A DNA stretch of 64,000 nucleotides from Methanofollis liminatans DSM 4140 (GTDB taxonomy: Archaea; Halobacteriota; Methanomicrobia; Methanomicrobiales; Methanofollaceae). The position numbers and the translations under genes are program-made. The DNA is taken from the NCBI RefSeq assembly GCF_000275865.1, contig NZ_CM001555.1, positions 2,258,967-2,322,966 of the forward strand, in the 5' to 3' direction. Positions 25,231 to 43,942 of the stretch are shown one piece after another; position 1 is the first letter of the stretch, and the number at the start of each line of letters is the position of its first letter. Under the pieces are notes generated by a model that was given only the letters and a program-made list of their open reading frames with translations, did not search any database and was not told the DNA's origin.

Positions 25231-25236
25231 TTTTTT
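25231..25236 (+). terminator. Oligo-T terminator after the HEAT-repeat gene
   Basis: Six T lie about 19 nt beyond the HEAT gene stop and end at the start of the convergent permease gene's stop region. Confidence 0.4.
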
Positions 25237-26392
25237 ATTCCGCCCCGAGCGCCTCGATCGGGTTGAGGCGTGCCGCCCGCAGCGCCGGGTACACCCCAGA
25301 GAGCAGGCAGACACCGATCCCGATCCCCATGCCGACCGGGATGTACACCAGTGTCTGCGGGGCGAAGAAGAAGGTCGTGTCCCCGAACATGAAGGAGATC
25401 AGCAGGTATCCGCCGAGCAGGCTCACCAGGGCACCGACGAACGAGCCCGCAACTCCCAGGATCACCGCCTCGTACAGGAATATCAGACTGATCTCGTGCT
25501 TCTGCACCCCGATGCTCCGCAGGATCCCGATCTCCTTGATCCGCTCGGAGACCGACATCAGCATCACGTTGAAGATGCTCACCGCCGCCACGATGAGGGA
25601 GATCCCGCCGATCGCCATCACGAAGAGGGAGATGCTCCCGAGGGCCTGGTTGACCATGTCCAGGAAGGCGCGGGAGTCCCAGACCGTCACCGTATCCTCG
25701 CGCCGGTTCATCTTGGACTCGATGCTCTCCTTCACCCGGTCGATTGCCGAGAGGTCCTTGACGACGATCTGGACCATGCTGTAGCCTTTGTCCCCGTAGA
25801 TCGAGGTGAAGGTGTTTTCCGCCACGACGATGGCGTTGTCGGTCATCATCGCCCCGGAAAACCCGGACTCTTTCAGGATGCCGACGACCCGCAGACTCCG
25901 TCCGCCCTCAGAACCAAGAACGATCCGGCTCCCGACGCGCATGTCGTACTCCCTCGCCAGGGCCGGGCCGACGAGAGCGCCTTCGCCGCCGCGGACAGAC
26001 ACCCCCCGATCGACCTCGGCGATCTCCCCGATGTCGCCGGGGTCGAGGCCGTATACGCTTGCATACCCGTCCTCCGAGCCGACGGCGATCCGGTCGGAGC
26101 CCGACATGATCGGGATCACCGGGTTTGTCCCGGCCGAGAGTTTGATGTCCCGGAGCTGCCGCTCGGTGATCCCCTCGTCGCTCCCCGTGGTCATATACGG
26201 GTAGACGACAAGGGTGTTCGCGCCCTCCGAGAGCTGGGACGAGACAGAGAGCTGGAGGGTCGAGCCCATCATCCCCATCGCCGTGATCGCCAGCACGCCG
26301 ATGACGATCCCGACGGCCGCCAGGAGAGAGCGGAGAAAGTGGAGCCTGACGTTCCGCGTCGCAAGGTCGAAGAGGATCCTGGAGAAGATCAT
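25235..26392 (-). CDS. MacB/FtsX-type ABC transporter permease
   Basis: The 385-aa protein has one N-terminal transmembrane helix (about residues 22-45), a long extracellular MacB-core domain (about 50-260) and three C-terminal helices. The helices contain the FtsX-like block SERIKEIGILRSIGVQKHEI. This architecture drives export or outer-surface mechanotransmission rather than uptake. Its start overlaps the ATPase gene stop by 4 nt, so they form one transporter. Confidence 0.9.
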   Translation of the reverse strand: MIFSRILFDLATRNVRLHFLRSLLAAVGIVIGVLAITAMGMMGSTLQLSVSSQLSEGANTLVVYPYMTTGSDEGITERQLRDIKLSAGTNPVIPIMSGSDRIAVGSEDGYASVYGLDPGDIGEIAEVDRGVSVRGGEGALVGPALAREYDMRVGSRIVLGSEGGRSLRVVGILKESGFSGAMMTDNAIVVAENTFTSIYGDKGYSMVQIVVKDLSAIDRVKESIESKMNRREDTVTVWDSRAFLDMVNQALGSISLFVMAIGGISLIVAAVSIFNVMLMSVSERIKEIGILRSIGVQKHEISLIFLYEAVILGVAGSFVGALVSLLGGYLLISFMFGDTTFFFAPQTLVYIPVGMGIGIGVCLLSGVYPALRAARLNPIEALGAE

Positions 26393-27063
26393 CGGGCGAT
26401 CCTCCCGTCAGAGATGGTGACGACCCGGTCGGCATATGCGGCCGTTCTGGCGTCATGGGTGACCATCACGATCGTCCGCCCCTCCTGGTGGAGATCGGCC
26501 AGCAGGTCCATGATCTGCGTCCCGGTCTTTGAGTCCAGGTTCCCGGTGGGTTCGTCGGCGAGCAGGATCCGTGGATTGTTTGCAAGCGCCCGCGCGATCG
26601 CCACCCGCTGCTGCTGCCCGCCAGAGAGTTCGGGGGGCGTGTGGGTGATCATCTCCCCCTCGAGCCCCACCTTCCGCAGGAGCTCGGCCGGGCGGCCCGA
26701 GACATCGCGGCGCCGGTGCTTCATGATCAGGGGGAGTTCGACGTTCTCGTAGGCGGTGAGCAGGGGGATGAGGTTGAACTTCTGGAAGATGAACCCGATC
26801 GCGTCCCGCCTGAGGTTGGTGAGCTCGATGTCGCTGAGATCCCGAACGTCGGTGCCGTCGATGAGGAGGCGGCCCGAGGTCGGGACGTCCAGGCAGCCGA
26901 GCTGGTTGAGAAGGGTGGACTTGCCCGAGCCCGAGGCGCCCATGATCGCCACGAACTCGCCCTCCTCGATCGAGAGCGTGACGCCGTTCAGCGCCACCAC
27001 GTCCCCTGCAGGGCGGGGATAGACCTTCCTGACCTCTTCGAGTCTGATGACCGGTGCGTCCAT
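26389..27063 (-). CDS. ABC transporter ATPase, LolD/MacB type
   Basis: The 224-aa ATPase has Walker A GASGSGKST, the Q-loop FQKFNLIPLLTAYENV, signature LSGGQQQRVAIARAL, Walker B ILLADEPTGNLD and the H-loop VTHD. The Q-loop wording is typical of MacB/LolD ATPases. It pairs with the FtsX-type permease next to it. No periplasmic adaptor is present, as usual in archaea. Confidence 0.93.
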   Translation of the reverse strand: MDAPVIRLEEVRKVYPRPAGDVVALNGVTLSIEEGEFVAIMGASGSGKSTLLNQLGCLDVPTSGRLLIDGTDVRDLSDIELTNLRRDAIGFIFQKFNLIPLLTAYENVELPLIMKHRRRDVSGRPAELLRKVGLEGEMITHTPPELSGGQQQRVAIARALANNPRILLADEPTGNLDSKTGTQIMDLLADLHQEGRTIVMVTHDARTAAYADRVVTISDGRIAR

Positions 27064-28533: not shown

Positions 28534-31500
28534 TTACTGCCGCTGCATGTAGATGTATGCACCGGCAGCGACAGCGATGATCACGATGATCACGATGACC
28601 CAGAGCCACGGGAAGCCGCCCTCATCAGAGGGGGTGGCCGGGGTCGTGGTCGTCGTGGCCGGAGCGGTCGTTGTCGGGGTCGTGGGCTCTGTCGTGACCG
28701 GGGTCACGATCGTCGAGTCGGAGAAGAGCCCGTAGGTGCTGAAGTGCGTGATCGAGGCGGTCACGGTGTGGTGCACGGTGTCGACGGTCGTCGGGACGCT
28801 CTCCCATTCGCCAGTCGACGGGTTGTACCACTTCACGACCAGGTTCTCGGCCTTGCCGCCGACCTTCTCCATCACTTCAGCCCATTCCTCAGCAGTCAGG
28901 GTGAAGGTCAGGTCGATCGCCGGCGAGAAGGTGGCGCCTGCAGGCGAGCACTCGACCGCATAGCCCAGGAAGGAGAAGACCGCACCGGTCGGAGCGGCCG
29001 GGACCTCGTCGCTCTCCAGGTCGGCGATGGTGATCTCGCTGACAGGCTTGCCGTCTCCGAGAAGGGCGGTCACGCCGGTGGCGAGGAAGAGGTTTGCCGT
29101 GCCTTCGTCAGAGTTGATCTGGTAGGGCTTGAGCACGCCGCCCCATGAAGAGGTCAGGAGGTCTGCCGAACCGGTCGAGGTGGTCGTCGAGACCGAGCTG
29201 CCGCCACCGCCACCGCCAGAGGGCCGCGGGGTCGGGGTTGGCGTCGGGGTCGGGGCCACAACGATCTGGTGGTAGCCGTAGGCCTGGACCGTGCCGTTCA
29301 CATGCTCGGCGAGCAGGTGGACGTCGTAGGTACCGGCGAGCAGGCCGCTGGTCCCGACGGTGACGGTGGTGGTGTTCTGAGCCGCGGCGTACTTAGCCGA
29401 GTTCGGGCTCGTGTAGATGTTGCCGGCGAGCTTCTGTGTCGCCGGGATGCCGCCGTAGGTCAGGTTCGCACTGATCATATTGGGGCCGATGGTGCTGGCG
29501 TCAATGCCAGCCTGGGCGTCCCAGGTGTCGTGCCTGACCATGACTGCCGCCACACGGCGGGCAGGGGTGGTAAAGGAGACGTCGAACGAGGTCCCGAGGG
29601 TCACGGATGCCGGGACGGTGCCGACCTCGTTCATGTTCATGACCGTGAAGGGCAGCACTTCGATGATGCCGATGCGGTCGTTATCCACGCTGATGGCAGC
29701 GAGGACGTAGTCACCGGCCGGGAAGGTAAGGGCAGGAAGCGCCTGCGTGCTGAGCCGGTAGCCGGCGTTCAGGTCGGCCTGGTTGTTGGTCAGGGCCAGG
29801 GTGTCCGTGATCTTGCCTGAGGCCGCGACGGCCAGCGGGGCGCCCACGGAGACAGGCTGGGAGAAGGTACCGTCAGGGTTGACCTCGATCTTCGTGTAGC
29901 CGCCGTTGATGAAGAACCAGGCGCTCTTCTTGAAGAGGTCGTTGTAGTTAATGTTGCTGGCCGCCCTGCCCTCATCGAGCATCCTGGCGAGGTAGGACTC
30001 GTTCGCCTCGAGGATCAGGAGGTTTGCGCCGTTGATGTTGGGCGCCTGCACCTGGAAGTCAAGAACACTGGACGGGTTGTAGGTCCAGAGTTTGTTGTAG
30101 GTCTGAGCGCCGGTGTAGGTCCGGTTTGCGGTGTTGTCCACTGCCACAAAGGTGTCGGCCGTCACCTGACCAACGTGGGTCACGGAGCGGACGATCGTGC
30201 CGAAGGGCGGGAGCGGGGCCTCACGGGCGTTGTAGAAGGTGACCGAGCCCTGGGCTGCGAGGTCGATCTGGCGCATCGCCGTGAGGTTCATGTCGATGCC
30301 CGAGACCGTGCCCGTGCGAGTGGAGTTCACCCAGGCCATGTAGTTGTAGTAGAGGTGGAAAGGCACATAGGCGACGTTGCCGGCATTATCGAATGCGGCG
30401 AAGACCATCGCGCGGTTGCCGACCGGGACGGTAACACTGTCCGAACCGGCGGCGGCAGTCGAGGTGAAGAAGACCGTCTGCGTGGTGTTGTCCTTGATCT
30501 CGACACGGTCAGCGCCGGCGACGTTCCAGTTGAAGTTCAACTGTTCGCCGGCCTCAATGTAACCGTCACCGTCGGTGTCGGTGATGGTGAACGAGGTGAT
30601 CACCGGCGGGACACGGTCGAGGGTGAAGGTCCACTCAAGTGAGCGGGATTCGCCGCCGACGGTGTCGGTGCCGGTGGCATTCACGGTCCAGGTGCCGTCA
30701 ACGAGTGCCGGGACGGTGGCGTTCTGTGCGTAGGCGCCGTCGAAGGTCACGCCGAGCGGGATCATTGCCGGGCCCGAGAGGGTCATCGTGACCGTGGCCG
30801 GGTCGATCTGCTGGGTGAAGACCTTGATCACGGTGGGCTGCGCGTTGATGAATCCGGTGGGCTCGGGGTACGAGAACCCGACCTGCGAGACGGTGACGAA
30901 CGCGCTGTTCGAACCGGTGTTGCCGGCGGCGTCGGTCGCCGTGACGTCGATGCGCACCGCTTCATAGGTCGTCCAGGTCACGCTGGTCGAGAACGTCCAG
31001 GTGCTGGGAGAAGTCTGCGTCAACGGAAGGTTGACCGTCTGGGTGGCGCCTGAGATGAGGCCGGTGAGCGTTGCCGATGGCGTACCCGTACCCATGCCGC
31101 CGACGTCAGTGACCGTGCCGGTGACGGCGAAGGTCTGGGAGACGGTGGCAGATGTGGTGATGGCGATGGCCGGGGCGACCTCGTCTAGGGTGGAGAAGGT
31201 GCCGTTGACTATGGTCGGTCCCACTACCGGATCGCCCAGGTTGTCATTGAAACCCAGACTCACCATTCCGAGTTCCGAAACACTACCATCATTTTTCAAT
31301 GCCGTAAATGAGATGTCAGCAAGGTGAAGATCGCCATTGGCATATCCACCGGCAAAATTGAATCCACCCATGTCGATATAGGTCGGATTGACATTCGCAA
31401 CCGACATTTGATCCATGTACACATCACTAGCGGTGACGGAGACAACTGTTGGATCAAAATACAGATAGAACTGATAGTTCCCAAGTTTCGGGTTGTAATC

Positions 31501-31665
31501 ATTTGCCACATATATGCTGACGTTGTGCGATGTTCCCTGTGCAATGTCCGATGCACTGGTTACATTAAGCACTCCTGATCCAGCTGCGGTTGCCGCAGGG
31601 GCCAAAAGTAACGTAAGCAAGAGGGCAAAGGATAGTATCCCCAGGCAATGTTTTTGTTGTGCCAT
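28534..31665 (-). CDS. Membrane-anchored surface protein with N-terminal cohesin-like domain and Ig-like repeats
   Basis: This 1043-aa secreted protein has a signal peptide (ends APAATAA). A cohesin-like domain comes first (about 27-170; YQFYLYFDPTVVSVTASDV). Ig-like beta-domains follow, one with a calcium-type DTDGDGYIEAGE. A PTPTP/Gly linker then leads to a membrane-proximal beta-domain (ATFSPAIDLTFTLT, HFSTYGLF) and a Thr-rich stalk. A C-terminal helix (WLWVIVIIVIIAVAAGAYI) anchors it, with a short basic end. It is last in the four-gene operon. The ATG at 31665 has GGAGG 8 nt ahead. It could be the anchoring scaffold that receives dockerins from its neighbours; this is inference. Confidence 0.75.
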   Translation of the reverse strand: MAQQKHCLGILSFALLLTLLLAPAATAAGSGVLNVTSASDIAQGTSHNVSIYVANDYNPKLGNYQFYLYFDPTVVSVTASDVYMDQMSVANVNPTYIDMGGFNFAGGYANGDLHLADISFTALKNDGSVSELGMVSLGFNDNLGDPVVGPTIVNGTFSTLDEVAPAIAITTSATVSQTFAVTGTVTDVGGMGTGTPSATLTGLISGATQTVNLPLTQTSPSTWTFSTSVTWTTYEAVRIDVTATDAAGNTGSNSAFVTVSQVGFSYPEPTGFINAQPTVIKVFTQQIDPATVTMTLSGPAMIPLGVTFDGAYAQNATVPALVDGTWTVNATGTDTVGGESRSLEWTFTLDRVPPVITSFTITDTDGDGYIEAGEQLNFNWNVAGADRVEIKDNTTQTVFFTSTAAAGSDSVTVPVGNRAMVFAAFDNAGNVAYVPFHLYYNYMAWVNSTRTGTVSGIDMNLTAMRQIDLAAQGSVTFYNAREAPLPPFGTIVRSVTHVGQVTADTFVAVDNTANRTYTGAQTYNKLWTYNPSSVLDFQVQAPNINGANLLILEANESYLARMLDEGRAASNINYNDLFKKSAWFFINGGYTKIEVNPDGTFSQPVSVGAPLAVAASGKITDTLALTNNQADLNAGYRLSTQALPALTFPAGDYVLAAISVDNDRIGIIEVLPFTVMNMNEVGTVPASVTLGTSFDVSFTTPARRVAAVMVRHDTWDAQAGIDASTIGPNMISANLTYGGIPATQKLAGNIYTSPNSAKYAAAQNTTTVTVGTSGLLAGTYDVHLLAEHVNGTVQAYGYHQIVVAPTPTPTPTPRPSGGGGGGSSVSTTTSTGSADLLTSSWGGVLKPYQINSDEGTANLFLATGVTALLGDGKPVSEITIADLESDEVPAAPTGAVFSFLGYAVECSPAGATFSPAIDLTFTLTAEEWAEVMEKVGGKAENLVVKWYNPSTGEWESVPTTVDTVHHTVTASITHFSTYGLFSDSTIVTPVTTEPTTPTTTAPATTTTTPATPSDEGGFPWLWVIVIIVIIAVAAGAYIYMQRQ

Positions 31666-31688
31666 AGATAACCTCCAATACGATTTAA

Positions 31689-32438
31689 TCAATCTTTCTT
31701 CATATAAATACTTTGGAATACGATGAACGAAACGAGGAGAGAGAGCATAACGAAGAGAGAATTTGTCGGTGATTGCAGTGGTTCTGTCATAGATGCAGAA
31801 TTCACACCTATAGTCTCAGTCACATCAGTATCTATGCCCGGTGTTGTCGAGATCTGGATCGGTCCTTCGGTCAGGACCGGAATCCCTGTCTGTACCTGGG
31901 AACCTGCACCGGTTGATTCAGTCTGACATATAGGCTGGCCCCCACTCTCCTGTGTTGTTTCCACCGGGCTTTCAGGTACTGCAGTAGGTACAGCTGTTGG
32001 CGTAACATCACCAGAGATGGGCCCTGTTGTGCCCTCCCTATAGGTGGGATTTACAGTTTTAATCGGGTCTCCCATCACGTTATAAAATTCATTGACATAG
32101 ACCGTTACCGTTCCCGAACCGTTCACTCCAAGCCGAATTAAAGGAACATCCCCTTTTGGAGCATCGGCAGATGTTGTTAAACCACCAATTCGTGTAATTC
32201 CCTCCTGATTCTGAACATTGATCGCCCCTGAATATGGATACATCCATTCTCCTGCTTCAAGAGAAACATCAGAGCCATATACAAGGATGATGTTAAAGGC
32301 TCCAAGACCGTATTCATCATTCTGGTCCTCTACAATGAGTACACCATCCCGAAGAACAACCTCAGTAGCTCCTGCTGAAACGATAACAAGCGCAAAAAGA
32401 AGAATCCCTGTGATTGCTGAAAAAAAAGAGGTTTTCAT
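31689..32438 (-). CDS. Small secreted cohesin-like, membrane-anchored protein
   Basis: The 249-aa protein has a signal peptide (MKTSFFSAITGILLFAL...), a single cohesin-like beta-domain (about residues 25-130; GLGAFNIILVYGSDVSLE, VPLIRLGVNGSGTVTVYV), a Pro/Thr/Glu-rich stalk and a C-terminal helix with a KKD end. The SD GGGTGATC overlaps the stop codon of the large thioester-protein gene, so the two are coupled. It is probably a small docking point on the cell surface. The gene is somewhat AT-richer than the others in the operon. Confidence 0.7.
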   Translation of the reverse strand: MKTSFFSAITGILLFALVIVSAGATEVVLRDGVLIVEDQNDEYGLGAFNIILVYGSDVSLEAGEWMYPYSGAINVQNQEGITRIGGLTTSADAPKGDVPLIRLGVNGSGTVTVYVNEFYNVMGDPIKTVNPTYREGTTGPISGDVTPTAVPTAVPESPVETTQESGGQPICQTESTGAGSQVQTGIPVLTEGPIQISTTPGIDTDVTETIGVNSASMTEPLQSPTNSLFVMLSLLVSFIVFQSIYMKKD

Positions 32439-32445
32439 ATGATGA

Positions 32446-35400
32446 TCACCCAATCCATTGATAACTATTGTCCCTCAGGCCGACAGACTTCTGGGCAATG
32501 AACATCGCATCGTTCATATTGATCAGGCCGTCGCCGTTCACATCTGGATAATCATAGGTAGCCGGGGAGCGAAGGTTCACAGCACATTGGGCAGTGTACA
32601 TGGCATCGTTCATTGTAATGTAACGGCCCTTAGTATCTATTTTCCCATCGGCATCTCCCCAGGCATCGCCAGTAAGCGAGATCCCGATCTCGTTCACGCC
32701 GTCCGGGGCGTCGTAGACGATCAGGGTGGCGTTGGTGGTGGTGTACGACTTGGACTGGGGGTTGTACGCAAACGTCCCGTTCCTGATCTCATAATAAGGC
32801 TCGTTTCCGACCCTGGACTCACTATCATTGAGCACCACGCCGTTCAGCGTGACCACAGGGTTATGGAACATGAACCGCTGCGGGAACTCAAGGGCAAGGC
32901 CCATCATCCCACCGTTGCCGATCAGGGTCGCCGTATAGGTGGCGTTCTCCGCAAAGCCAGCCGAAAGTTCGGGCGGCACCGACGAGACGCCGCCGAGCGA
33001 GCCCGTTCCCTGCGAGAGGATCAGCCGCGGGGTAGAGAGATCGGTCGGCATGGAGACAGTGACGTTCGTCTGGTCGTTTGCCGTCACGCTCACCGTGGTG
33101 CTGACGTTGGCGCAGCCCTCCTTCGAGACCGAGAGCGGGTAGGAGCCCGCGAGGAGGCCGGTGAAGGTGTGGCTCGATTTGACGACAGGGGCCAGGTCGC
33201 CGAGGGCGATCGTCGCCGATACCGCGGCGCCGGTCTCATTGATGACCTGCACCGCCACGTCGCCGCGGCCGGTAACGGTCAGGCTCTTCTCAGAGAGGGT
33301 GACGTTCGTCTCGTCGTAGAGGGGCCTGAACCTGAGGTGGAAGTCGAGGTCGCCCACGTTCGTCGGGGTGATGTCGAAGACATAGGTGTAGGTCGAACCA
33401 CTGCGCCAGTGGTTGGGCTCGATGTAGATCGAGGTGGCGTCGGCGTTGACCGAGCTGTTAAGCACTTCGTACGAGACCGGCGCACCGTTCTGGGTGATCG
33501 TGCCGTTCGCGAAGGTGAAGCCCTCGATCGGGACCTCAATCAGCGGGGAGAGGACATCCTCGCCTGAGATGACCTGGAGGGTCAGCGCGCCGGACTCGTT
33601 CGCGACGAGCGGAGACGGGGTCGAGGTCAGGGAAACAGACGAGAAGATCGCCTGCGGTGCGGCGTCGCCGAGGAGGTCCATGTTCTCGGAGAGGACCAGG
33701 GCGTCGGAGGACGGGGCACTGCTGCCGAACATCTGGATGGTGCCGCTGTCCCTGATCGTAGAGTCGATCTCGTTGACCGGGGCGCGCTGGGAGTTCTCGA
33801 CCGAGACCAGGATCGTCCCGGTACCGCCTGTCCGGTCCACGTCGACCAGGTGCTCCTTTACGGTTGAGTAGGGGACGGGATAACGCGTCTCGGTGCCGTT
33901 CGCCATCATCGCCGCCATCTGGTCGGCGGTGAGGGTGTACTCGTCCTTCGGATTGGTGGCGTCGACATTCAGGGTGCAGATGTGGGTGCCGTCGATGGAG
34001 ACGTCCACCGTGCCGCTGCTGACGCTGATGGGCTGACAGTGGATCAGGGCGTCGATCGCCGCCTGGGTCGCCCAGGTGTAGCCCCAGCTGCCGCCGGACT
34101 CATACTGGTTGATGAGCCAGTTCACGCCCTTCTGGATCGTGGTATCATCCGCCTTAATGCCGGTGGCGTTCAGGGCGAGGACCGTGTAGGCGGTGCTCTC
34201 AGTCGTACGGCCGTTGCTGTACCATCCGTAGGACGAGTCGGCGTCCCAGGAGCCGTCGGCGTTCTGGTTGGCGACGAGCCACGCCGTGGCGTTCGCCTTC
34301 GCAGTGTCGATCTGGGCCTGGGTCACGTCGTCCGAGTTCGTCCCGTAGGACTGGAGGCCCCAGAGGCCGAGTGCCGTCGCCATCGCCTTGTCGCTGCTGC
34401 CGCCCCAGGATCCGTCTGCGGCCTGGTTCTGGACGAAGTAGCGGGTGGCGTTCTGCATGTTCTTTGTCATGTAGGTCGCATAGGGCTCTGAGATCGTGCC
34501 CTGCTGCCTGATCATGTCGTGGATCAGCATCACGAACCCGGTGTTCGAGGTCGGGGTCCATGCATGGCAGACACCGGCGCTCCAGGTCCAGGTGCCGCTC
34601 GACGGGTTGTCAGGGTTCAGATAGAACCACTCGACGAGTTTATCGAAGTTCACCGTGCCCGGATTGACCGTGGCATTCTTGCTGATCTTGCCGGTCAGGA
34701 GGCGGTTTAAGTCCTCACCCGACTCGTTCACCCGTGCAAGGGTGTAGGCGGCGTACGAACTCGATGAGGCCTCGGATTCGCCGTAGCCCCAGAGGCTCCA
34801 GCCGCCGTCGTCGTGCTGGCCGCGCAGGGCGCCTTTCACCAGGACGCTGATGCCGCCTTCGACCGATTCGTTCGCCCGGCTGCGGATCGAGGCGAAGTCG
34901 CTCGGCTTGTCAGGGCGGTCGAGGTAGTAGTTCTTCACGTTCAGGGAGGCGAGCATCTGCGAGGTGGTCTGCTCGACGCAGCCGTACGGGTAGCGGACCA
35001 GGTAGCCGAGGCCCGTCAGGGTGCGGCCCCGGGCGCCGGACTGGGCGGTGATGGTAGTGCGGTTGTCATAGGTGTTGTTGGTGTGGAGGGTGTTGTAGGT
35101 CATATCGAAGGTGCTGTCGCTGTCAGCGCTCACCGAGTCGACCGATTTGACCTGGATGGAGGGGATCCAGATGAGGACGTCATGAGTCGATGCTTTAGAG
35201 GCCGTTTTGCCGTTCGCCGAGGCGGTCAGGCTGATCGAACCGGCCGCAAGCGTTCCGGGCCTGGATGACCGCATCCAGTATGATACGTAGTTCCAGTATC
35301 CTCCAGACATCCACTGGGTGACGTTGGCGCCGCCCCATACCTCGACGCCGGCCGGGGCTGTGAGGTTCAGCTGGACATTTCCGCTCTCGCTCGGCTTGAC

Positions 35401-36294
35401 GTACCAGCTCAGGTAGAACCAGTCGCCCACCGCGGCGCGGGAGTATCCGTAGACATAATCGTACACCTCAAGGGTGTAGGTCCGTGCGGTCACCGAGCGC
35501 TCAGCCGTCGTGGTCCCGACGACCGGCAGCCCGGTGTCCGAGGTCACGTTGACCTTGAGGGTGTAGGTGCCTGCCGTCGCCGGGATCCACGCTATCCGCT
35601 GGACGTCCTGGGCGTACGCCGGCAGCACAACCCCGCTCCGCTCGGTGGTGTTGACGATCGAGCCGTCGGGGGCGGTGATGGTGGTGTTGACCGTCAGCGC
35701 CGAGGTTGAAATGCCGCGCCGGTTCGTCACCGTGAAGACGGCGAAGGTCGAGGCGCCGTCAGGAACGTTCTGGCTCGCCGCACCGACGCTGGCGACGATA
35801 CGGTTGATCTGCTGGGTGGTGATGGTGGCATTGTCGATCGAGGCCACCGGGATGTCGTTGCCGCTCGTCGAGTTCAGGAAACCGTAGTTGTTCACCACGG
35901 CCGAAACAGCCGTCGATTTCCCGGTGTCGTCGATAGCCCTGAAGCGCGCCGTAAAGAGATCGGCGCTGCCCGAAACGCCGCCAAGGGTGGCGTTCACCGC
36001 AGCGACGCGGATGCGCCCGCTCTGGGTGTAGACGGCGCTGTTGTTCACGTGGCCCGAGAAGAGCGGGCCGATCTGGACGTCCCCGGTTTCAAGTTCGACG
36101 ACCGAAGGGTCCCAGCGCAGGTCGATATCGAACCCGCCGAGGTTCTCGACGTTCTGGACACCGACCGTCAGCGCGGCGGTATCGCCGTACGCCAGGGTGG
36201 AGGTCTGCGGCGTGACGACAATGTCGGCCGCAGATACCGATAAGACGAGGGTGAGGAGGAGGATCCCCACCATCAGGAAGTTTCGTGTTTTCAT
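32446..36294 (-). CDS. Secreted cohesin-thioester-domain (A2M/complement-like)-dockerin protein
   Basis: The 1282-aa protein has a signal peptide, then a cohesin-like domain (about residues 24-160; GGFDIDLRWDPSVVELETGDVQI) and Ig-like domains (about 165-390). A helical toroid of the alpha-2-macroglobulin thioester type begins near 420 with GYLVRYPYGCVEQTTSQM; Cys439 and Gln442 could form the internal thioester. The toroid repeats run on (GGWSLWGYGESEASSSSYAAYTLARV, AADGSWGGSSDKAMATALGLW, NADGSWDADSSYGWY). Later beta-domains lead to a dockerin-like end (DVNGDGLINMNDAMFIAQKSVGLRD). The macroglobulin MG domains of full A2M are not evident. GAGGTGAA precedes the ATG. Confidence 0.8.
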   Translation of the reverse strand: MKTRNFLMVGILLLTLVLSVSAADIVVTPQTSTLAYGDTAALTVGVQNVENLGGFDIDLRWDPSVVELETGDVQIGPLFSGHVNNSAVYTQSGRIRVAAVNATLGGVSGSADLFTARFRAIDDTGKSTAVSAVVNNYGFLNSTSGNDIPVASIDNATITTQQINRIVASVGAASQNVPDGASTFAVFTVTNRRGISTSALTVNTTITAPDGSIVNTTERSGVVLPAYAQDVQRIAWIPATAGTYTLKVNVTSDTGLPVVGTTTAERSVTARTYTLEVYDYVYGYSRAAVGDWFYLSWYVKPSESGNVQLNLTAPAGVEVWGGANVTQWMSGGYWNYVSYWMRSSRPGTLAAGSISLTASANGKTASKASTHDVLIWIPSIQVKSVDSVSADSDSTFDMTYNTLHTNNTYDNRTTITAQSGARGRTLTGLGYLVRYPYGCVEQTTSQMLASLNVKNYYLDRPDKPSDFASIRSRANESVEGGISVLVKGALRGQHDDGGWSLWGYGESEASSSSYAAYTLARVNESGEDLNRLLTGKISKNATVNPGTVNFDKLVEWFYLNPDNPSSGTWTWSAGVCHAWTPTSNTGFVMLIHDMIRQQGTISEPYATYMTKNMQNATRYFVQNQAADGSWGGSSDKAMATALGLWGLQSYGTNSDDVTQAQIDTAKANATAWLVANQNADGSWDADSSYGWYSNGRTTESTAYTVLALNATGIKADDTTIQKGVNWLINQYESGGSWGYTWATQAAIDALIHCQPISVSSGTVDVSIDGTHICTLNVDATNPKDEYTLTADQMAAMMANGTETRYPVPYSTVKEHLVDVDRTGGTGTILVSVENSQRAPVNEIDSTIRDSGTIQMFGSSAPSSDALVLSENMDLLGDAAPQAIFSSVSLTSTPSPLVANESGALTLQVISGEDVLSPLIEVPIEGFTFANGTITQNGAPVSYEVLNSSVNADATSIYIEPNHWRSGSTYTYVFDITPTNVGDLDFHLRFRPLYDETNVTLSEKSLTVTGRGDVAVQVINETGAAVSATIALGDLAPVVKSSHTFTGLLAGSYPLSVSKEGCANVSTTVSVTANDQTNVTVSMPTDLSTPRLILSQGTGSLGGVSSVPPELSAGFAENATYTATLIGNGGMMGLALEFPQRFMFHNPVVTLNGVVLNDSESRVGNEPYYEIRNGTFAYNPQSKSYTTTNATLIVYDAPDGVNEIGISLTGDAWGDADGKIDTKGRYITMNDAMYTAQCAVNLRSPATYDYPDVNGDGLINMNDAMFIAQKSVGLRDNSYQWIG

Positions 36295-36305
36295 CTCTAT
36301 TCACC

Positions 36306-39300
36306 TCACAGGATCCTGAAGTAGGGGTCCCTCAGGCCAGCATTCTTCTGGGCGATGAACATCGCATCGCCCACCTCGATGGCGGTGTTCTCATGGACGT
36401 CGGTCTGGAGGAAAGCCATCGATCCGGCGGCCGGTTTTGCCGTCAGGCCGACGACCTCACGCAGCACGCGGAGGGTGTCGGCCTGGTCGACCACGCCGTC
36501 GCCATTCGCGTCACCGTAGAGGAGCAGCACTGCGCCGCCCGCGGTCACCTCGACCGGGATCGGGTACTCGGCAGCGTCCCAGAGCTGGGCCGCAAGCCCG
36601 AACACCGTCTCATCGCCGCTCGAACCGATCGCCGAGAGGTGGATCGTCGCAACGGTCACGTTGCCCGAGATGCCGGTGGTGGTCCCGCCGTTGAAGGCGA
36701 CCGTCCCGGTCCCGATGTTCTTGGCGGTCAGGGGGATCGCCCCCGAGGTCACGTCCGTGACCGTGACGACCGCCGGGTCGAAGGTGAAGGTCATCTGGTA
36801 GGCCGCGAGGTTCTCCGCACCGTTCACCACGACCGGCAGGTCATAGGTCGTGCCGGGCACGAGCACCTGCTCCTGCGGCAGTACGATTGAGGTCGACGGG
36901 TGGAGGTAGCAGTGGACCGTCCGGTTCGCCTTGTTGTTCGCAAACGTCGTCTCGTAGTCGGTGGCACCGTTCGGGTTCACCTCGAGACTGAGCGTGTAGG
37001 TGCCCGGGCTTGCCAGGAGGGTCTGGTTCCGCCAGACCGTGTAGGACTCGCCGGCGCCGAGGGCGGGAACGGCGATCGTCGCGGTCGGGCTCCCGGTGAT
37101 CACGTAGGTCATCGTGGTCGCAACGGCCGGGACCTCTCCCTGGTTCGTGACCACAAGGGCGATCGGCGTTGCGGTGCCGCTCTGGATCACGATCGATGGG
37201 GTCATGATCTGCGCCGCAAGGTCGGGTGCGGTGATCCGCACCGGGTAAACCACGTTGTTGTTCGCGTAGGAGATCTCACCGATCGTGCGGTCGGGGTTCA
37301 CCGTCACGTCGACGTTCGTGTTCACCGGCAGGTGATAGTCGCTGGTGTTGATGCCATAATCCGAAGCCCTGGCCTGGAAACTTGTGTGCAGGGCCTGTTT
37401 CGTCTCACCCACGGCGATGTTGCCCGAATAGGTGGTGGATTGGTCCTTGCTCCCGACCGATGCACGGACTACGATGTCCTTGTCGGTGCGGATGAAGTCA
37501 GCGGTGCCCTGGTTCGTAATATAGAGATAGAGGTCGTTGACCGCTATCGAGTCGTCGCGGTTGAGTTTCACTACGTGCGGGGCCTGGACCGAGGGGACGA
37601 AGTCGGGCAGGGCGGCGGTGGTGAGCATGAAGGCACCGTCGACACCCTGCCATACCGCTCCGCCCTTGAGCACCTCATCGTCCTTGTAGCAGGAGACGCG
37701 GTACGGGACGTAGTCAGAGAACCCGAGGGCCCCTCTGTAGAGCATCATCTCAGCCGACGGGGCGTGGAAGGTCAGGGTGACCTGGCCGTTTGTGTCGGTG
37801 TAGCCGGTCAGCACCTCGGCGTAGGGGTCGGGGTAGATGTTATCCATGTGGAGGATGTTGAGCGGGCGGACCTCGTCGTCGGAGACGCCGTAATCGAAGC
37901 TTGAAGCGCCGCCCAGGAAGAACCCGACCTTGGCGTTGCTGATCGGATTGCCGTCGTTGTCCGTGACCGTGAAGGTCACCGGCACCGTCTCGCCGGCAAG
38001 GACGTCCTTCTTCACGGTGTAGGCCACACCGGCGCCGGGCACGTCAAAGTCCTGGCTCATCCAGTTGAACGAACTGGTGCCGGGCACCAGCACGGCGGCG
38101 GAGACCTCATAGGTACCGTCCTGCGAGGGCGTGAGGTTCATCGCCCATTCGCCGGTGTAGGCGAGGGTGCTGGCAAACTCGGTTCCGAGCGAATTCCAGC
38201 CCTCGATCGGGCTCCCGGTAAAGATGCCGCGCTCGACGATCGCCTCATCGTCAGGGCCGTAGGAGTGGAGCGAGACCATGTAGGCGCCGTTGCCCTGGTA
38301 GTCGACGTCCATCCACCTGTACTCGGAGTCAGGGTAGAGTGTCCAGATCTCGGCAGCCGCCTGCTGCTCTCCGGAGAGGATGCCCGGGCGGATCCGGCTG
38401 TATGAGTCCGGATAGAACGGCATGTAATCATCAGCCCAGCCATAGGTGCTGATCCCCTCCGTGATCAGGATCGCATCTTCGAAGGTCTTCCCGGCGACGT
38501 CGAGGGTGAAGGTGCAGGTGCCGTCGGCGCCGGTGGTCTTCGTCTGGACGCCGTCTGCGGTGTAGAGCCAGACCGTCTTCCCGGCCAGGGGCGTCTCTGT
38601 TTCGGTGGTGCCGTTGCAGGTGTACACGATGGCGGTCAGGTTCGCCCCGTCGCCAGGCACCGAGCAGTAATTCTCCTGATCCCAGGTCGCCGACCAGTCG
38701 AAGTCGTAGACATTGACATAGGTGCTGTCGCCCGTGTTCAGGGAGACCGGCACCGTCGGGGTCACGCGGTGGAGGGTCCAGGGCGACATCGAACCGTAGA
38801 CGACCGAGACCATGAACGAGTCATAGTAGCCTTCGAAGTTTTCGGGGTCGGCGAACTTGACGACCGCCACGTAGCAGTCCTCGGGCATCGTGAAGTCATA
38901 GATACCGATGCCGTTTCTCACCTGCACCGTCCCGACGAACTCCTCGGACTTCATGCCGCCGGTCGCCTCGATCAGGGCGGCGCCGTCCACCGGCATGCCG
39001 GCGGCGAGCGGGCCGCTGATCTCGGACGGGAGGGAGAGGATCTCGGTCTCGGTGAAGGCGGTCACGTAGACGGCATAGTCCTTCGAGGTGACCGTCCCGC
39101 CGGACCCATGGTTCCCGGCAACCGAGAGGGCGATATCGATCGAGCCTGTCGGCGGGCAGATCGCCATCTTCGGCGAGGAGAACGCCTCATACCAGACCTC
39201 ATACGAGAACGAGATGGAGCCGGCGTATCGTTCGTTGATCTTGACGTCGAGGCCCCCATAGGGGTTCACGTTGAAGCCTGCAAAGTCGATCGTCGCCTCG

Positions 39301-41567
39301 ATCACGCCGTTGGTCGGGGCCAGGGTCTCATCATAGATCTCTCCCACAGTCAGCCCGACCGGTTCGGTGTAGGCCGATCCGTCGGCCTTCAGCAGGGGGT
39401 AGCGGACTGTGACCGAACCGTTCACCGGGGCGATGAAACCCTGCGAGACGAAGAGGGGTTCGGTTACCGCAGCCCCGCCGTTGGACGGGACGTACTTGTG
39501 CTCAGAGTCGGAGAGGGTGCGACCGTCCCAGGTCATATCGGTGTAGAACGAGGCACCCGGGGGGACGGCGCTGATGCCGATGGTGGCGGTCGCCATACCG
39601 TTGGCATCGGTCACAAACGTTTCGTTGAAGATCTCGACGGGGGATGAGGCATCAAGATAGTGGACCCGGAAGTTCACCGTCTCTCCTGCCATGGGTGCAC
39701 CCGCTGTGGCGTTCCAGCAGACGGAGAGCATCTTCACGTTGTTCGGGTCGACGGAGCCGTCGTATGACGACCCGCCGAAGAGTTCGGTGAGGTAGGGCAG
39801 GGGTGCGGTCCCGTGCAGCCCGCCGGTCGCCTCGACCGCGCTGTAGGCGTTGATCCTGCCTGCGCCATAGAGGTTGTTCAGCTCAGGGGTCGCCATCGCC
39901 GTGCCGTCTTCCTTGATGTGGACGGCCGTCTCCATGAGGGTCTCCTTCACCGCTCCCGGCGTCAGCGTCTCGTTACCCGCAAGCATGAGGGCGACGGTGC
40001 CGGCGACGCCCGGCGTGGCCATCGAGGTGCCGTCCATGACAGCGTACCGGCCGTTCGGGTAGGCGGAGAGGATCCCGACGCCCGGTGCCATCAGGTCGGG
40101 CTTGACGTACGGGTTCGCCCGGTTCACCGGTCCGATGGAGCTGAAGGTCGCCCGGTAGTCCATGCAGTAGTCGGTGGCGCCGACGGTGATCACGTCCTCG
40201 GCCGTGCCGGGGGTGCCGATGGTGCCGGTGCCAAAGTAGCCTGAGTTTCCGGCCGAAACCACCGCCACCACGCCGCTGTCGGCGAGGGTGTTCAGTGCGT
40301 CTTCGTAGGCGGTGTTGCCGTTGGCCTGGTAGGCAGCGGCGATCCGGGCTTCATCGAGCCAGACTATATCGTTGCCGTTGTTGGTGATCTCAACGGTCCA
40401 GAAACCGTTCCAGTTCCCGCTGTTGTTCACGTACGGCGCCTTGAACGTCACCTTGTTCGACAGATGGTCGAAACCGTCCCAGTCGATGTAACCGCCGGTG
40501 GCGGCCGACATGCCAGGAGCGTACAGGGCCATCGAGAGATTGGCCGGTTCGGGCTCATACGGGGAGATCCCCACAGCCATGCCCATCTCAGGGAGCGTGT
40601 AGCCGCCGACGACGAACTGGGGTTCATACAGGCCGCCATCATAGCCGATGTTCCCTCCGACTTCGAGCGTCAGGCTGACCGTCTCGCCGGGCCAGATCTC
40701 AATGGGCGTCGTATTCTTGTCCAGATAATACGACCCGACGCTGAGGGAGATCACGTCGGCCCCGTTCTCGACCGACCACTCGATCCCCTTGAGGATGGCG
40801 CTGGTAGTACCGGAACCTGCCGAGTTCAGCACCTTCGCGCCGATCAGGTCGGCACCGGGGGCGACGCCCAGGAGAACATTGTACTCGCCGCTATACGACG
40901 AGACGACGACCTCGCCGCCGGCAGCCGTGCCGGCGCAGTGGGTGCCGTGGCCGTTGTCGTCGTAGGCCGAGGTGTTGTCAGAATTGACAAAATCGGCGAA
41001 GGCCTTCACGCGGCCGCCGAAGGCCGGGTGCGAACCGTCGATGCCGGTGTCCACGACGGCGATCGTCACGCCTTCGCCCTGGTTCCCGGCGTTCCAGACG
41101 GCCGGGGTCTCGATCCAGTCGAGGTGCCAGGGGAGCATGAACTCCTCGCTGCTCCGGATGTACTGGGCATCGACTGCGTCAGAGACCTCATAGACCGGGT
41201 CGTCCACCTGCATCTGCATATCTGGCTCGACATGGTCGACACCGGGCAGGAGGGCGATCCGTTCGATCGTCGCCTCGTCTGCCTCGACCCGGATCGCGTT
41301 CACGATCCAGAACTGCTCGGCAGACTGCGCAGTGGCTCGATCGATCGCACTGATCGACGAGAGCACCGTGGCCTGGCTTGATGCAGCCTGTGCTTTCATC
41401 ATCGCATATGATGTACCGCTGTCCGGCTGGTCCTTGAGCACCACGAGATACGGCATCCGATCGTCTGTCCCGACAACGGATCCGCCAGGTGCTCCGGCGG
41501 CTGCAAAGCCGACCAGTACCAGCAATAGAAAAATAGTCAGAATACTCCGCGAAGTAACGCGCGTCAA
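36306..41567 (-). CDS. Secreted subtilisin-like protease with C-terminal cohesin and dockerin domains
   Basis: The protein is 1753 aa: signal peptide, I9-type propeptide (about 38-120), then an S8 catalytic domain. Its triad is Asp (IAVVDTGIDG, about 173), His (NGHGTHCAG, about 207) and Ser (MDGTSMATPG, about 515). An unusual beta-rich stretch of about 140 residues sits between His and the oxyanion Asn (SAGNSG). Many Ig/CARDB-like domains follow. A cohesin-like domain (YQMTFTFDPAVVTVTDV) and a dockerin (GDANGDGVVDQADTLRVLREVVGL, VGDAMFIAQKNAGLRD) end the protein. The start is TTG at 41567, behind an SD-like GAGGTGAT; GTG at 41576 is the alternative. Confidence 0.85.
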   Translation of the reverse strand: MTRVTSRSILTIFLLLVLVGFAAAGAPGGSVVGTDDRMPYLVVLKDQPDSGTSYAMMKAQAASSQATVLSSISAIDRATAQSAEQFWIVNAIRVEADEATIERIALLPGVDHVEPDMQMQVDDPVYEVSDAVDAQYIRSSEEFMLPWHLDWIETPAVWNAGNQGEGVTIAVVDTGIDGSHPAFGGRVKAFADFVNSDNTSAYDDNGHGTHCAGTAAGGEVVVSSYSGEYNVLLGVAPGADLIGAKVLNSAGSGTTSAILKGIEWSVENGADVISLSVGSYYLDKNTTPIEIWPGETVSLTLEVGGNIGYDGGLYEPQFVVGGYTLPEMGMAVGISPYEPEPANLSMALYAPGMSAATGGYIDWDGFDHLSNKVTFKAPYVNNSGNWNGFWTVEITNNGNDIVWLDEARIAAAYQANGNTAYEDALNTLADSGVVAVVSAGNSGYFGTGTIGTPGTAEDVITVGATDYCMDYRATFSSIGPVNRANPYVKPDLMAPGVGILSAYPNGRYAVMDGTSMATPGVAGTVALMLAGNETLTPGAVKETLMETAVHIKEDGTAMATPELNNLYGAGRINAYSAVEATGGLHGTAPLPYLTELFGGSSYDGSVDPNNVKMLSVCWNATAGAPMAGETVNFRVHYLDASSPVEIFNETFVTDANGMATATIGISAVPPGASFYTDMTWDGRTLSDSEHKYVPSNGGAAVTEPLFVSQGFIAPVNGSVTVRYPLLKADGSAYTEPVGLTVGEIYDETLAPTNGVIEATIDFAGFNVNPYGGLDVKINERYAGSISFSYEVWYEAFSSPKMAICPPTGSIDIALSVAGNHGSGGTVTSKDYAVYVTAFTETEILSLPSEISGPLAAGMPVDGAALIEATGGMKSEEFVGTVQVRNGIGIYDFTMPEDCYVAVVKFADPENFEGYYDSFMVSVVYGSMSPWTLHRVTPTVPVSLNTGDSTYVNVYDFDWSATWDQENYCSVPGDGANLTAIVYTCNGTTETETPLAGKTVWLYTADGVQTKTTGADGTCTFTLDVAGKTFEDAILITEGISTYGWADDYMPFYPDSYSRIRPGILSGEQQAAAEIWTLYPDSEYRWMDVDYQGNGAYMVSLHSYGPDDEAIVERGIFTGSPIEGWNSLGTEFASTLAYTGEWAMNLTPSQDGTYEVSAAVLVPGTSSFNWMSQDFDVPGAGVAYTVKKDVLAGETVPVTFTVTDNDGNPISNAKVGFFLGGASSFDYGVSDDEVRPLNILHMDNIYPDPYAEVLTGYTDTNGQVTLTFHAPSAEMMLYRGALGFSDYVPYRVSCYKDDEVLKGGAVWQGVDGAFMLTTAALPDFVPSVQAPHVVKLNRDDSIAVNDLYLYITNQGTADFIRTDKDIVVRASVGSKDQSTTYSGNIAVGETKQALHTSFQARASDYGINTSDYHLPVNTNVDVTVNPDRTIGEISYANNNVVYPVRITAPDLAAQIMTPSIVIQSGTATPIALVVTNQGEVPAVATTMTYVITGSPTATIAVPALGAGESYTVWRNQTLLASPGTYTLSLEVNPNGATDYETTFANNKANRTVHCYLHPSTSIVLPQEQVLVPGTTYDLPVVVNGAENLAAYQMTFTFDPAVVTVTDVTSGAIPLTAKNIGTGTVAFNGGTTTGISGNVTVATIHLSAIGSSGDETVFGLAAQLWDAAEYPIPVEVTAGGAVLLLYGDANGDGVVDQADTLRVLREVVGLTAKPAAGSMAFLQTDVHENTAIEVGDAMFIAQKNAGLRDPYFRIL

Positions 41568-41608
41568 CAATATCACCTCTGGGGATAGATAGATAAATGC
41601 GTCAATTC

Positions 41609-41618
41609 TGATTTAAAT
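41609..41618 (-). promoter_or_regulatory. TATA box of the cohesin/dockerin operon
   Basis: Minus-strand ATATTTAAATC lies about 45 nt ahead of the TTG start, leaving a short leader with the SD. An alternative AT-rich box is at 41651-41663. The palindrome-like CCCGGATATTCGGG (41677-41690) lies between this and the divergent gene's TATA box (41728-41736). Confidence 0.5.
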
Positions 41619-41756
41619 ATTCCGGATTCTGGGGTTTTTGCCAGATAGAAAATAATATATAATGCAATGATTTGAACCCGGATATTCGGGAAAAACGAGA
41701 GAGATCCACCAGCAGAGTCCACAAAAGAGATATAGTATCCACCAAGAGTAGTGTGC

Positions 41757-42944
41757 ATGAAAGAGCCCAGAATCGGGCGGTTGCTTGCAGTGATCCTGGG
41801 GCTGATCGCAGTCGTCGCCCCGATCGCCGCCGCCACCGTCACCATCGCGCCGGACACGATCCAGGAAGGCACGCCGATCACCGTCTCGGTCAAAGGCCTC
41901 CCTGACGAGAGTACCTTTATGATCAGGGTCGAGGCCTCGATCCCCCTCGACAGCAGCGGAAAATATTCTCTGAGCACCAATAACCTTCAGATGCCCTTCG
42001 CCCTCACCGGCGGCCAGATTGATATCCGGGCCGAGAACGTGAAGACGGCGAACTTCAGCGCGCGGATGGGCGGTCGGGCCGTGACAATCTTCGGCGATGC
42101 TGAAAACGGGCTCGTGACCATAAACCAGCCAGGGGACATCCCACAGGGGCTCATCACCTATATCACCCTCGAAGGATCGGGCGCCGATGGAGCGGGAGCC
42201 GTTACGTCCTCCATGGACCTCAGTGGCAAGAAGGTCGGAGCCACCGATGCGGACGTCACCTTCACCGTGAACGGCTTCGGCAGCGGCAGTGTCAACGTGA
42301 AGGTCTATGTGGACGGCAGCCTGGTCGCCACCGTCCCGGCCTCGACGCCCACGACGACAGTGCCGGGCGGTTCCTCCTCTGGCGGCGAAACGACCACAAC
42401 CCCGGCCGCGGACGAAACCCTGACCGTCTCCTCCCTCGACGACCTGGCCGTCCTGACCTTTGAGCGCGGTGCACTCTCGGGCGCCGGCGCCGACGACCTC
42501 ACCGTGATGGTGAGCAACCGGGCCGTGCCTGAGGGCTGGACGGCCCTCGCCGGACCGTTTGCGATCCTGCCGTCAGACGCAACCTTTAATCCCTCCGCGG
42601 ACTTCAGCATCACGATGACCGCGGACGGGAAGGACACCTCGGTGCCGTACACCATACTCGGCTACACCGGGGGGACCTGGAAGCCCCTGCAGAGCCGGAT
42701 CGACGGCGACACCATCTCCACCTCGATCGCCGCGGCAGGAGAGTACGCTCTGGTCATGCCCCGCGAAGAGACGACGACGGCAGTGACGACAGGAGCGACC
42801 ACCGCCCCGACCGGGACGACGACGACCGTAGCAGCCGCAGAGACGACCGAACCGGCGACGACCCCCGTGGCAACGCCCCTCTCCCTCCTGTGCGCCCTTG
42901 GTGGTGTTGCAGCCGCCGGTCTGCTGTATAGAAAACTGCCCTGA
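41757..42944 (+). CDS. Membrane-anchored surface protein with a cohesin-like N-terminal domain
   Basis: The 395-aa protein has a signal peptide, a beta-rich N-terminal domain with the TITVSVKGLPDES pattern, and two further beta-domains. One near the membrane (ATFNPSADFSITMT, YTGGTWKPLQSRIDGDTISTSI) resembles the membrane-proximal domain of the 1043-aa operon protein. A Thr-rich stalk and a C-terminal helix (LSLLCALGGVAAAGLLY) anchor it. AGATATAGT (41728-41736) stands about 25 nt ahead of the ATG, indicating a leaderless start divergent from the cohesin/dockerin operon. Confidence 0.7.
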   Translation: MKEPRIGRLLAVILGLIAVVAPIAAATVTIAPDTIQEGTPITVSVKGLPDESTFMIRVEASIPLDSSGKYSLSTNNLQMPFALTGGQIDIRAENVKTANFSARMGGRAVTIFGDAENGLVTINQPGDIPQGLITYITLEGSGADGAGAVTSSMDLSGKKVGATDADVTFTVNGFGSGSVNVKVYVDGSLVATVPASTPTTTVPGGSSSGGETTTTPAADETLTVSSLDDLAVLTFERGALSGAGADDLTVMVSNRAVPEGWTALAGPFAILPSDATFNPSADFSITMTADGKDTSVPYTILGYTGGTWKPLQSRIDGDTISTSIAAAGEYALVMPREETTTAVTTGATTAPTGTTTTVAAAETTEPATTPVATPLSLLCALGGVAAAGLLYRKLP

Positions 42945-42946
42945 AT

Positions 42947-42954
42947 TTTTTTTG
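42947..42954 (+). terminator. Oligo-T terminator after the surface-protein gene
   Basis: Eight T directly follow the stop and precede the DUF1616 gene start by 7 nt. Confidence 0.5.
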
Positions 42955-42961
42955 TGATGCC

Positions 42962-43942
42962 ATGAGCGAAGACAAGCCCGCGATCGTTGAGGCCCTGGAA
43001 CCCGGGGCCGTGCCAAAGGATCTCGTCGCCATCGCCCTCTGGACGGTGGCGACAGTGCTCTGCGTCTATCTTCCGGTGCTGAACACGAGCGTCCTGCGGG
43101 TGGTCTTCGGCCTGCCCATGGTCCTCTTCATTCCGGGCTACGCCCTGATCGCCGCCCTCTTCCCGGCAAAAGACGATCTCGACGGCATCGAGCGGGTCGC
43201 CCTCTCCTTCGGGCTATCGATCGCTGTCGTCCCCCTGATCGGGCTTGCCCTCAACTACACACCCTGGGGGATCAGGCTCGATCCGATCCTCACCGCCCTG
43301 GTAATCTTCACCTTTGCGATGATCGCCGCCGCACACTGGCGGCGGGTCATGCTCCCGCAGGAAAAACGTTTTTTCGTTCCGTTCGCCAGCATGGCGGCGG
43401 AGGCGCGATCAGAACTCTTCCCGGCTGAAAGTTCGAGGCTCGACCGGGCGCTCTCGGTCGTCCTGATCGTCGCCATCGCGGCCGCCATTGTCACCACGGT
43501 CTACGTGATCGTCGTCCCGAAAGAGGGCGAGCATTTCACCGAGTTCTACATCCTGGGATCAGGCGGGAAGGCCGCCGACTACCCGACCGACTTTTTTGCC
43601 GGGACCGAGCAGTCCCTGATCATCGGGGTCGGTAACCACGAGTACAGGAACGTCACCTACACCGTCGAGGTGCTGCTCACCGACCAGACCTTCGATACGG
43701 CGACAAACACTTCCACGGTAAACAAAATGGAGCGTATCGGGAGGTTCTCCCTTGAGATCCCCCACAACACCACGGTCGAAGAGCCGTACTCCTTCTCCAT
43801 CGAGAGGACCGACATGAACCGGCTCCAGTTCCTCCTTTTCAACGAGACCATCCCCTCAGACGCCGTCTGGGGCGAGGATAGGATCGAGGCGAGCTACCGG
43901 GACCTCCACCTCTGGGTCCGGGTCAGGCCGCCTGTTCAATAA
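42962..43942 (+). CDS. DUF1616 membrane protein
   Basis: The 326-aa protein has four transmembrane helices in the N-terminal half, including FGLPMVLFIPGYALIAALFP and the family signature GIERVALSFGLSIAVVPLIGLALN. A fifth helix is at about residue 165. The outer C-terminal domain is beta-rich (FYILGSGGKAADYPTDFFAGTEQSLIIGVGNHEY), like a CARDB/NPCBM-type binding module. DUF1616 genes often stand near S-layer or glycosylation genes in archaea. Its 3' end overlaps the convergent gene by 20 nt. Confidence 0.82.
   Translation: MSEDKPAIVEALEPGAVPKDLVAIALWTVATVLCVYLPVLNTSVLRVVFGLPMVLFIPGYALIAALFPAKDDLDGIERVALSFGLSIAVVPLIGLALNYTPWGIRLDPILTALVIFTFAMIAAAHWRRVMLPQEKRFFVPFASMAAEARSELFPAESSRLDRALSVVLIVAIAAAIVTTVYVIVVPKEGEHFTEFYILGSGGKAADYPTDFFAGTEQSLIIGVGNHEYRNVTYTVEVLLTDQTFDTATNTSTVNKMERIGRFSLEIPHNTTVEEPYSFSIERTDMNRLQFLLFNETIPSDAVWGEDRIEASYRDLHLWVRVRPPVQ

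Follow-up and report, generated by a model that had tools for sequence, protein, structure and literature searches.

What could hold a secreted protease and a complement-like thioester protein together at an archaeal cell surface, and what would decide on whose surface they are mounted, are the questions raised by a four-gene operon of Methanofollis liminatans DSM 4140 (order Methanomicrobiales). The operon lies on the minus strand at positions 28534–41576 of a 64,000-nucleotide stretch (the window) of the single contig of this 2.475 Mb genome. In the open reading frame (ORF) listing its order is SB-TED-COH2-ANC: a secreted subtilase (SB, 1756 residues, 36306–41576), a thioester protein (TED, 1282 residues, 32446–36294), a fast-evolving cohesin protein (COH2, 254 residues, 31689–32453) and a surface protein (ANC, 1052 residues, 28534–31692). 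SB and TED are separated by 11 nt, whereas TED and COH2 overlap by 8 nt and COH2 and ANC by 4 nt. Most of what is known of cohesin-dockerin pairs comes from cellulosomes. A preliminary description of the window had reported four minus-strand genes here, a cohesin in every product, dockerins at the ends of the two largest and membrane anchors in the other two, all of which our analyses bear out: a cohesin fold or family is supported for SB by Pfam, for TED and COH2 by structure and for ANC by profile; SB and TED end in duplicated dockerin repeats of the calcium-loop/helix kind, the profiles of which match with 98.3% probability; and COH2 and ANC have C-terminal hydrophobic segments, judged by eye, as putative membrane anchors. 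The most unusual feature of the locus was absent from that description. It is an exchangeable, hypervariable docking cassette (31204–32690, minus strand) of low GC content with sharp identity borders, comprising the end of TED with its dockerin (residues 1209–1282, 32449–32670), the whole of COH2 and the start of ANC with its cohesin (31204–31587).

A homologue search covering 232 genomes of the order identified 17 close TED orthologues in three families, and the neighbourhoods read around them have the order SB-TED-COH2-ANC in all 17 (SB being truncated by the contig end in L029 and reduced to its C-terminal part in L043), so that the conservation of gene order, which the preliminary description had named as a check, is established. 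Against this constant order the cassette stands out in composition and in ancestry. In the window, GC content falls from ~64% in the flanks to 43–50% in the cassette, and GC content at third codon positions (GC3) is 34–56% there versus 87–88% in the flanking gene bodies, a shift that recurs in other high-GC genomes and is weaker in L033 and L034. Outside the cassette, L031 and L032 are ~82% identical in TED and ~76–80% in the body of ANC, whereas inside it their TED dockerins share 16% identity (11–28%), their COH2 proteins ~30–34% and their ANC cohesins 22% (13–36%). Conversely, the cassette modules of L030 and L032 are 75, 79 and 67% alike (TED dockerin, COH2 and ANC cohesin, respectively) versus 60–77% for the bodies. 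Cassette types are shared across genus boundaries, and in trees and in approximately unbiased (AU) tests run in both directions they disagree with the operon body. The operon body rejected a grouping of the window with L030, L032 and L033 (p = 4e-58), a grouping to which the dockerin plus ANC-cohesin data gave 100/99 support; the latter data rejected both a Methanofollis clade (p = 0.001) and a pairing of L031 with L032 (p = 8e-6), the groupings in these tests having been chosen after inspection of the data.

A near relative, G003, provides a further example. Its flanks are 94% identical to the window at the nucleotide level; SB, TED and COH2 are absent at the site and ANC is kept. The ANC cohesin of G003 is 33% identical to that of the window and 72% to that of L029, another species of the genus, and in the ANC body the relation is reversed (72 and 61%, respectively). 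The nucleotide match to the window resumes where the cohesin ends, at 31217. At the break itself (L141 12912–16180; G003:C1 near 1441–1444 kb), ORFs that by eye resemble transposases replace COH2, TED and SB, and an adjacent segment is inverted. A search of 15 genomes with models of the ANC cohesin and the TED dockerin for a reservoir of silent cassettes found no spare TED-type dockerin and a single full-score ANC cohesin match per genome, at the operon, with one weak extra match in each of three genomes. The lack of spare cassettes in these genomes favours exchange between genomes over switching within one. It might be objected that the whole pattern is an artefact of alignment or orthology among fast-evolving modules, which are short and in distant pairs hard to align. 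Such an artefact was already disfavoured and we consider it highly improbable, as the likeness of cassettes can exceed that of the bodies (L030 and L032, and G003 and L029 with 72% versus 61%), GC3 shifts at the same borders and each genome has a single full-score match to the ANC cohesin model, located at the operon. Our sequence comparisons thus support replacement of the cassette as a block by recombination between species.

Co-variation among the modules suggests which cohesin receives the TED dockerin. The statistics cover 16 genomes with shallow alignments, and partial Mantel tests were used to control for divergence of the operon body. The TED dockerin co-varied with the ANC cohesin (r = 0.73, p = 0.0002; without Methanofollis 0.71, p = 0.0002) and with COH2 (r = 0.69, p = 0.0002; without Methanofollis 0.37, p = 0.11), so that outside Methanofollis only the link to ANC remains significant; the SB and TED cohesins did not track the TED dockerin in these tests. 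L034 and L036 have COH2 proteins that are 88% alike, flanked by TED dockerins and ANC cohesins with a likeness of only 45 and 33%, respectively. Among diverged versions of the operon that have no COH2 (L044, L045, L047 and L048), L045 departs in its dockerin and its ANC cohesin together. Co-variation across an unchanged or absent COH2 argues against pure linkage. The strongest candidate for the partner that the TED dockerin binds is consequently the ANC cohesin; its profile matches the clostridial NagJ cohesin-like modules 2jh2 and 2o4e (E = 4e-4), and its match to Pfam Cohesin is sub-threshold. The cohesin of COH2 (32046–32369) has an AlphaFold model with a pLDDT (predicted local distance difference test) of 88.7, whose top Foldseek match is the Archaeoglobus cohesin 2xdh and which gives a VIA Z of 11.8 to a CipA cohesin; together with the TED cohesin described below, it confirms by structure the cohesins that had been suspected from sequence. 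Profile matches of COH2 to DARPins in the PDB were treated as chance.

The TED dockerin is also internally symmetric, its repeats being 66% identical within a protein versus 30% between proteins (p = 5e-5). Agreement between the repeats is strongest at the columns placed at loop positions 9–11, 14, 17, 18 and 20, among which are 10, 11, 17 and 18, the classical recognition sites. Duplicated symmetric dockerin surfaces underlie dual binding in cellulosomes (PMC12484212).

The main rival driver of this diversity is pressure from viruses or competitors. Under that explanation, the exposed cohesins of ANC and COH2 diversify as targets of viruses or other microbes, and the TED dockerin follows by fit and linkage within an otherwise ordinary surface assembly. 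Both receptors are predicted to be exposed membrane proteins, the three parts of the cassette are contiguous, and low GC content with types shared across genera is typical of exposed, exchanged surface loci. Set against these points are the borders of the cassette, which fall at domain edges and include a dockerin that should be buried when docked, and the co-variation of TED dockerin and ANC cohesin around an unchanged COH2 and where COH2 is absent. In addition, a search of viral contigs for the SB dockerin, in which the cohesins were not included, yielded no relative. We judge this explanation to be rather unlikely.

The second dockerin of the operon obeys an opposite docking code: that of TED is hypervariable and symmetric, whereas that of SB (36309–36527) is conserved, asymmetric in its repeats and shared by other exoproteins. 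Its mean identity across orthologues is 70%; it matches solved dockerins by profile (E = 0.003–0.01) and Pfam Dockerin_1 with an E-value of 0.01, which is below the curated cut-off for a single protein. Dockerins of the SB type end four further exoproteins of the window genome, which have PKD, Big_2 or NHL domains. Across the order, 14 of the 17 operon genomes encode SB-type dockerin proteins in addition to SB, and any such dockerin was found in just 5 of the 215 other genomes (Fisher p = 7e-16, not corrected for relatedness). SB-type dockerins thus occur almost exclusively in genomes that have the operon, and their receptor is probably one of its products. Of the operon cohesins, the N-terminal one of TED is alone in co-varying with the SB dockerin, if weakly, and is, from these comparisons, the likely docking site of SB.

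Two observations concern the wider distribution of dockerins. The gene upstream of SB in L033 (17421–18539), L034, L035, L036, L041 and L137 codes for a short protein that has the conserved dockerin of the SB type; those read also contain a PKD-like region, and that of L033 a cohesin as well. The gene looks as if it had been recruited into the operon. Elsewhere in the window genome (L055 2811–8103, near 1123–1129 kb), two adjacent proteins, one of them a subtilase, have a dockerin of another type (YNDVVVYY/FNDVVVYY), and there are therefore at least three dockerin codes in this genome.

Both enzymatic parts of the operon had been named in the preliminary description, and both identifications stand. 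SB consists of an I9-like propeptide, a complete S8 protease domain (residues 167–573, 39858–41078; Peptidase_S8 E = 6e-49), Ig-like and CARDB domains, a cohesin (36528–36890; Pfam Cohesin 30.8 bits, E = 4e-7, above the cut-off) and the dockerin. Asp176, His210 and Ser518 are invariant in the alignment of 14 SB orthologues. Taking the longest ORF, its start is a GTG at 41576, in place of the 41567 given earlier.

TED begins with a cohesin (residues 21–164, 35803–36234) which has a VIA Z of 15–16 to solved cohesins and matches the SB cohesin-dockerin profile at 97.7% in hhalign. This is followed by a CARDB-like domain, an MG7-CUB-TED-CUB series, a PEGA domain and the dockerin (Dockerin_1 E = 0.008, a single-protein score below the curated cut-off). 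The thioester domain, an alpha/alpha toroid (residues 421–757, 34024–35034), matches Pfam TED_complement (E = 4e-10) and holds the thioester motif Cys439-Val-Glu-Gln442 (34969–34980), which is invariant in 16 close orthologues and has the form GCPEQ in eight diverged ones. The best Foldseek matches of TED are CD109, A2ML1, alpha-2-macroglobulin (A2M), bacterial A2M and TEP1 (best E = 1e-27), with C3 also matched, and residues 272–858 of the model superpose on residues 825–1402 of C3 to give the order MG7-CUB-TED-CUB. TED thus corresponds to only the C-terminal half of a macroglobulin; the N-terminal ring of MG1-6 with the bait region is replaced by the cohesin and a single CARDB-like domain. 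His577 (34564–34566), in a VCHxW motif 138 residues past the thioester cysteine, is invariant in close orthologues. We took it to be a possible equivalent of the hydroxyl-directing catalytic histidine of C3, which alignment to C3 did not confirm.

This anatomy bears on function. The preliminary description had proposed a surface complex that captures and processes proteins or defends against foreign proteases; a surface assembly is still the simplest reading, but the defensive role has lost ground. A defence in which TED traps or blocks foreign proteases at the surface, with the subtilase clearing or activating them, is favoured by the intact CxEQ and by the nearest folds, CD109, A2ML1, A2M and bacterial A2M; a protective inhibitory role has been suggested for bacterial A2Ms (PMC4498604). 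Yet a cohesin and a CARDB-like domain stand where the bait half would be, so that TED is without the known trigger, and a broad trap would strike the operon's own protease. A classical protease trap is thus unlikely because of the missing bait half, and we demoted this explanation to an improbable one. Similarly improbable, in our view, is complement-like marking, in which SB cleaves TED and the exposed thioester bonds to surrounding cells or polymers. In its favour are the adjacency of protease and thioester protein in one operon and the invariant His577, with its resemblance to the catalytic histidine of C3. Against it, no cleavage site was identified, diverged versions of TED appear by eye to be without His577, and in some operons no protease adjoins TED.

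Those diverged versions of the operon stand beside ANC in at least eight more genomes. Their TED proteins have ~1700–1990 residues, the GCPEQ motif and, in those examined, several cohesins. COH2 is present in L046, L049, L050 and L051, and a subtilase adjoins TED in L044, L045, L047 and L048. The diverged TED proteins of L044, L046, L049 and L051 (1744–1990 residues) appear to combine several cohesins with a dockerin, in the manner of scaffold-like relatives of A2M.

The reading that we favour, with a probability of roughly 0.6, is a self-assembling surface complex with a lineage-specific, exchangeable lock and key between ANC and TED, by which TED complexes would be mounted on cells of the same type. 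The membrane protein ANC would display the cohesin that catches the TED dockerin, and COH2, whose type follows that of the TED dockerin more loosely, may serve as a second anchored cohesin. A conserved operon cohesin, most likely the N-terminal one of TED, would receive SB and the further exoproteins that share the conserved dockerin of SB, to form an ANC-TED-SB complex. On the mounted complex the thioester would bond covalently to nearby molecules or nucleophiles, which the protease would process, and the coupling of ANC to TED would keep TED complexes on their own cell type and off its neighbours. Domain identities, the conserved operon, exchange of the cassette and co-variation of TED dockerin and ANC cohesin are the supported parts of this proposal, all from sequence and predicted structure; from these we infer physical binding, docking of SB on TED, exclusion of neighbours and the capture-and-process function.

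Several points weigh against this proposal. The three cassette modules adjoin on the DNA, and linkage may account for part of their co-variation; moreover, related genomes enter the Mantel tests as exchangeable units. Co-variation of the SB dockerin with the TED cohesin is weak (partial Mantel r = 0.35, p = 0.011, uncorrected for the 15 pairs tested) and has a p of 0.13 once Methanofollis is left out. The toroid itself is modelled poorly (pLDDT 40–60), and we assign it on the combined evidence of Pfam, the invariant CVEQ and the fold match. Since a single cell makes both partners, keeping neighbours out is only one possible driver. Lastly, the protease as first gene, with its S8 domain intact in the window, is not a constant of the operon, since in L043, L046, L049 and L051 no protease adjoins TED. 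The first gene of L043 (11895–14654) keeps the C-terminal cohesin and dockerin of SB, but its first half has no match to subtilase, the docked domain having been exchanged or lost, and no subtilase homologue was found immediately upstream of TED in the other three.

The immediate neighbours of the operon in the window are a MacB-type ABC transporter (25235–27063, minus strand) and, on the plus strand, genes for a small secreted surface-type protein (41751–42944) and a DUF1616 protein (42962–43942). In many of the loci examined, the latter two genes (41751–43942) are found next to the operon or the diverged form of it. A minus-strand ORF at 41573–41980 was regarded as spurious, as it overlaps the opposite gene at 41751–42944 and has no Pfam match.

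Cohesins and dockerins are known from archaea, including scaffolds of anaerobic methanotrophic archaea (ANME), with roles that are not yet clear (PMC9012536). Like those non-cellulosomal systems (2xdh; PMC9012536), the operon has cohesins and dockerins on secreted proteins, with few cohesins per protein in the window, and its diverged TED proteins resemble archaeal multi-cohesin scaffolds; unlike them, it joins the pair to a protease and a thioester protein and encodes one coupling in a hypervariable cassette that can be exchanged. In cellulosomes, proteases and inhibitors (the serpin PinA and Dpi) that bear dockerins are known (PMC12484212), and the operon shares with cellulosomes dockerin-borne serine proteases, protease-interacting proteins on a scaffold and symmetric dual-binding dockerins. 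Unlike a cellulosome, no glycoside hydrolase or carbohydrate-binding module was found in the four operon proteins or in six dockerin proteins examined. Recognition residues are largely common between species of mesophilic clostridia (PMC5748583), whereas here they vary between close relatives.

Archaeal A2M homologues, some of them near endoproteases, have also been described (PMC8416519). With A2Ms, CD109 and TEP1 (PMC8416519, PMC4498604), TED shares the MG7-CUB-TED-CUB half and a CxEQ thioester; it differs in being without the bait half, in having gained a cohesin and a dockerin, and in the exchange of its C-terminal dockerin. A parallel to that exchange is VARTIG of Thermococcales, an arCOG07710 immunoglobulin protein with a variable distal Ig domain (PMC8416519): it too is a large secreted protein whose hypervariable C-terminal domain is exchanged between species. 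Compared by description, these are different proteins, and in TED the variable C-terminus is a dockerin, with its likely partner cohesins in the same cassette. It is likewise no polymorphic toxin, the variable C-terminus being a dockerin and no toxin family having been found in the Pfam or NCBIfam results. The claim of the preliminary description that protease and thioester protein had not been described together in such an assembly is accordingly narrowed: dockerin-borne proteases and inhibitors and A2Ms near endoproteases are known (PMC12484212, PMC8416519), but the combination of a thioester with docking is unreported in the literature found. A search of papers returned no dockerin with an alpha-2-macroglobulin, and co-varying cohesin and dockerin modules exchanged as a cassette were not found in open-licence papers; an exchangeable specificity cassette in a cohesin-dockerin system therefore appears to be new.

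The locus represents an archaeal cohesin-dockerin case with a defined architecture and two opposite docking codes. It also shows a macroglobulin-type protein of archaea whose C-terminus is exchanged, something not found by an earlier survey (PMC8416519). Its natural cassette swaps predict which cohesin-dockerin pairs should bind and which should not, and it offers many naturally diverse pairs for tests of orthogonality. More tentatively, the cassette may be an allelic compatibility locus: its matched cohesin and dockerin alleles, transferred together from species to species, would determine whose secreted thioester-protease complexes a cell can mount. If true, archaea would have a complement-like machine governed by a form of self-recognition or private goods.
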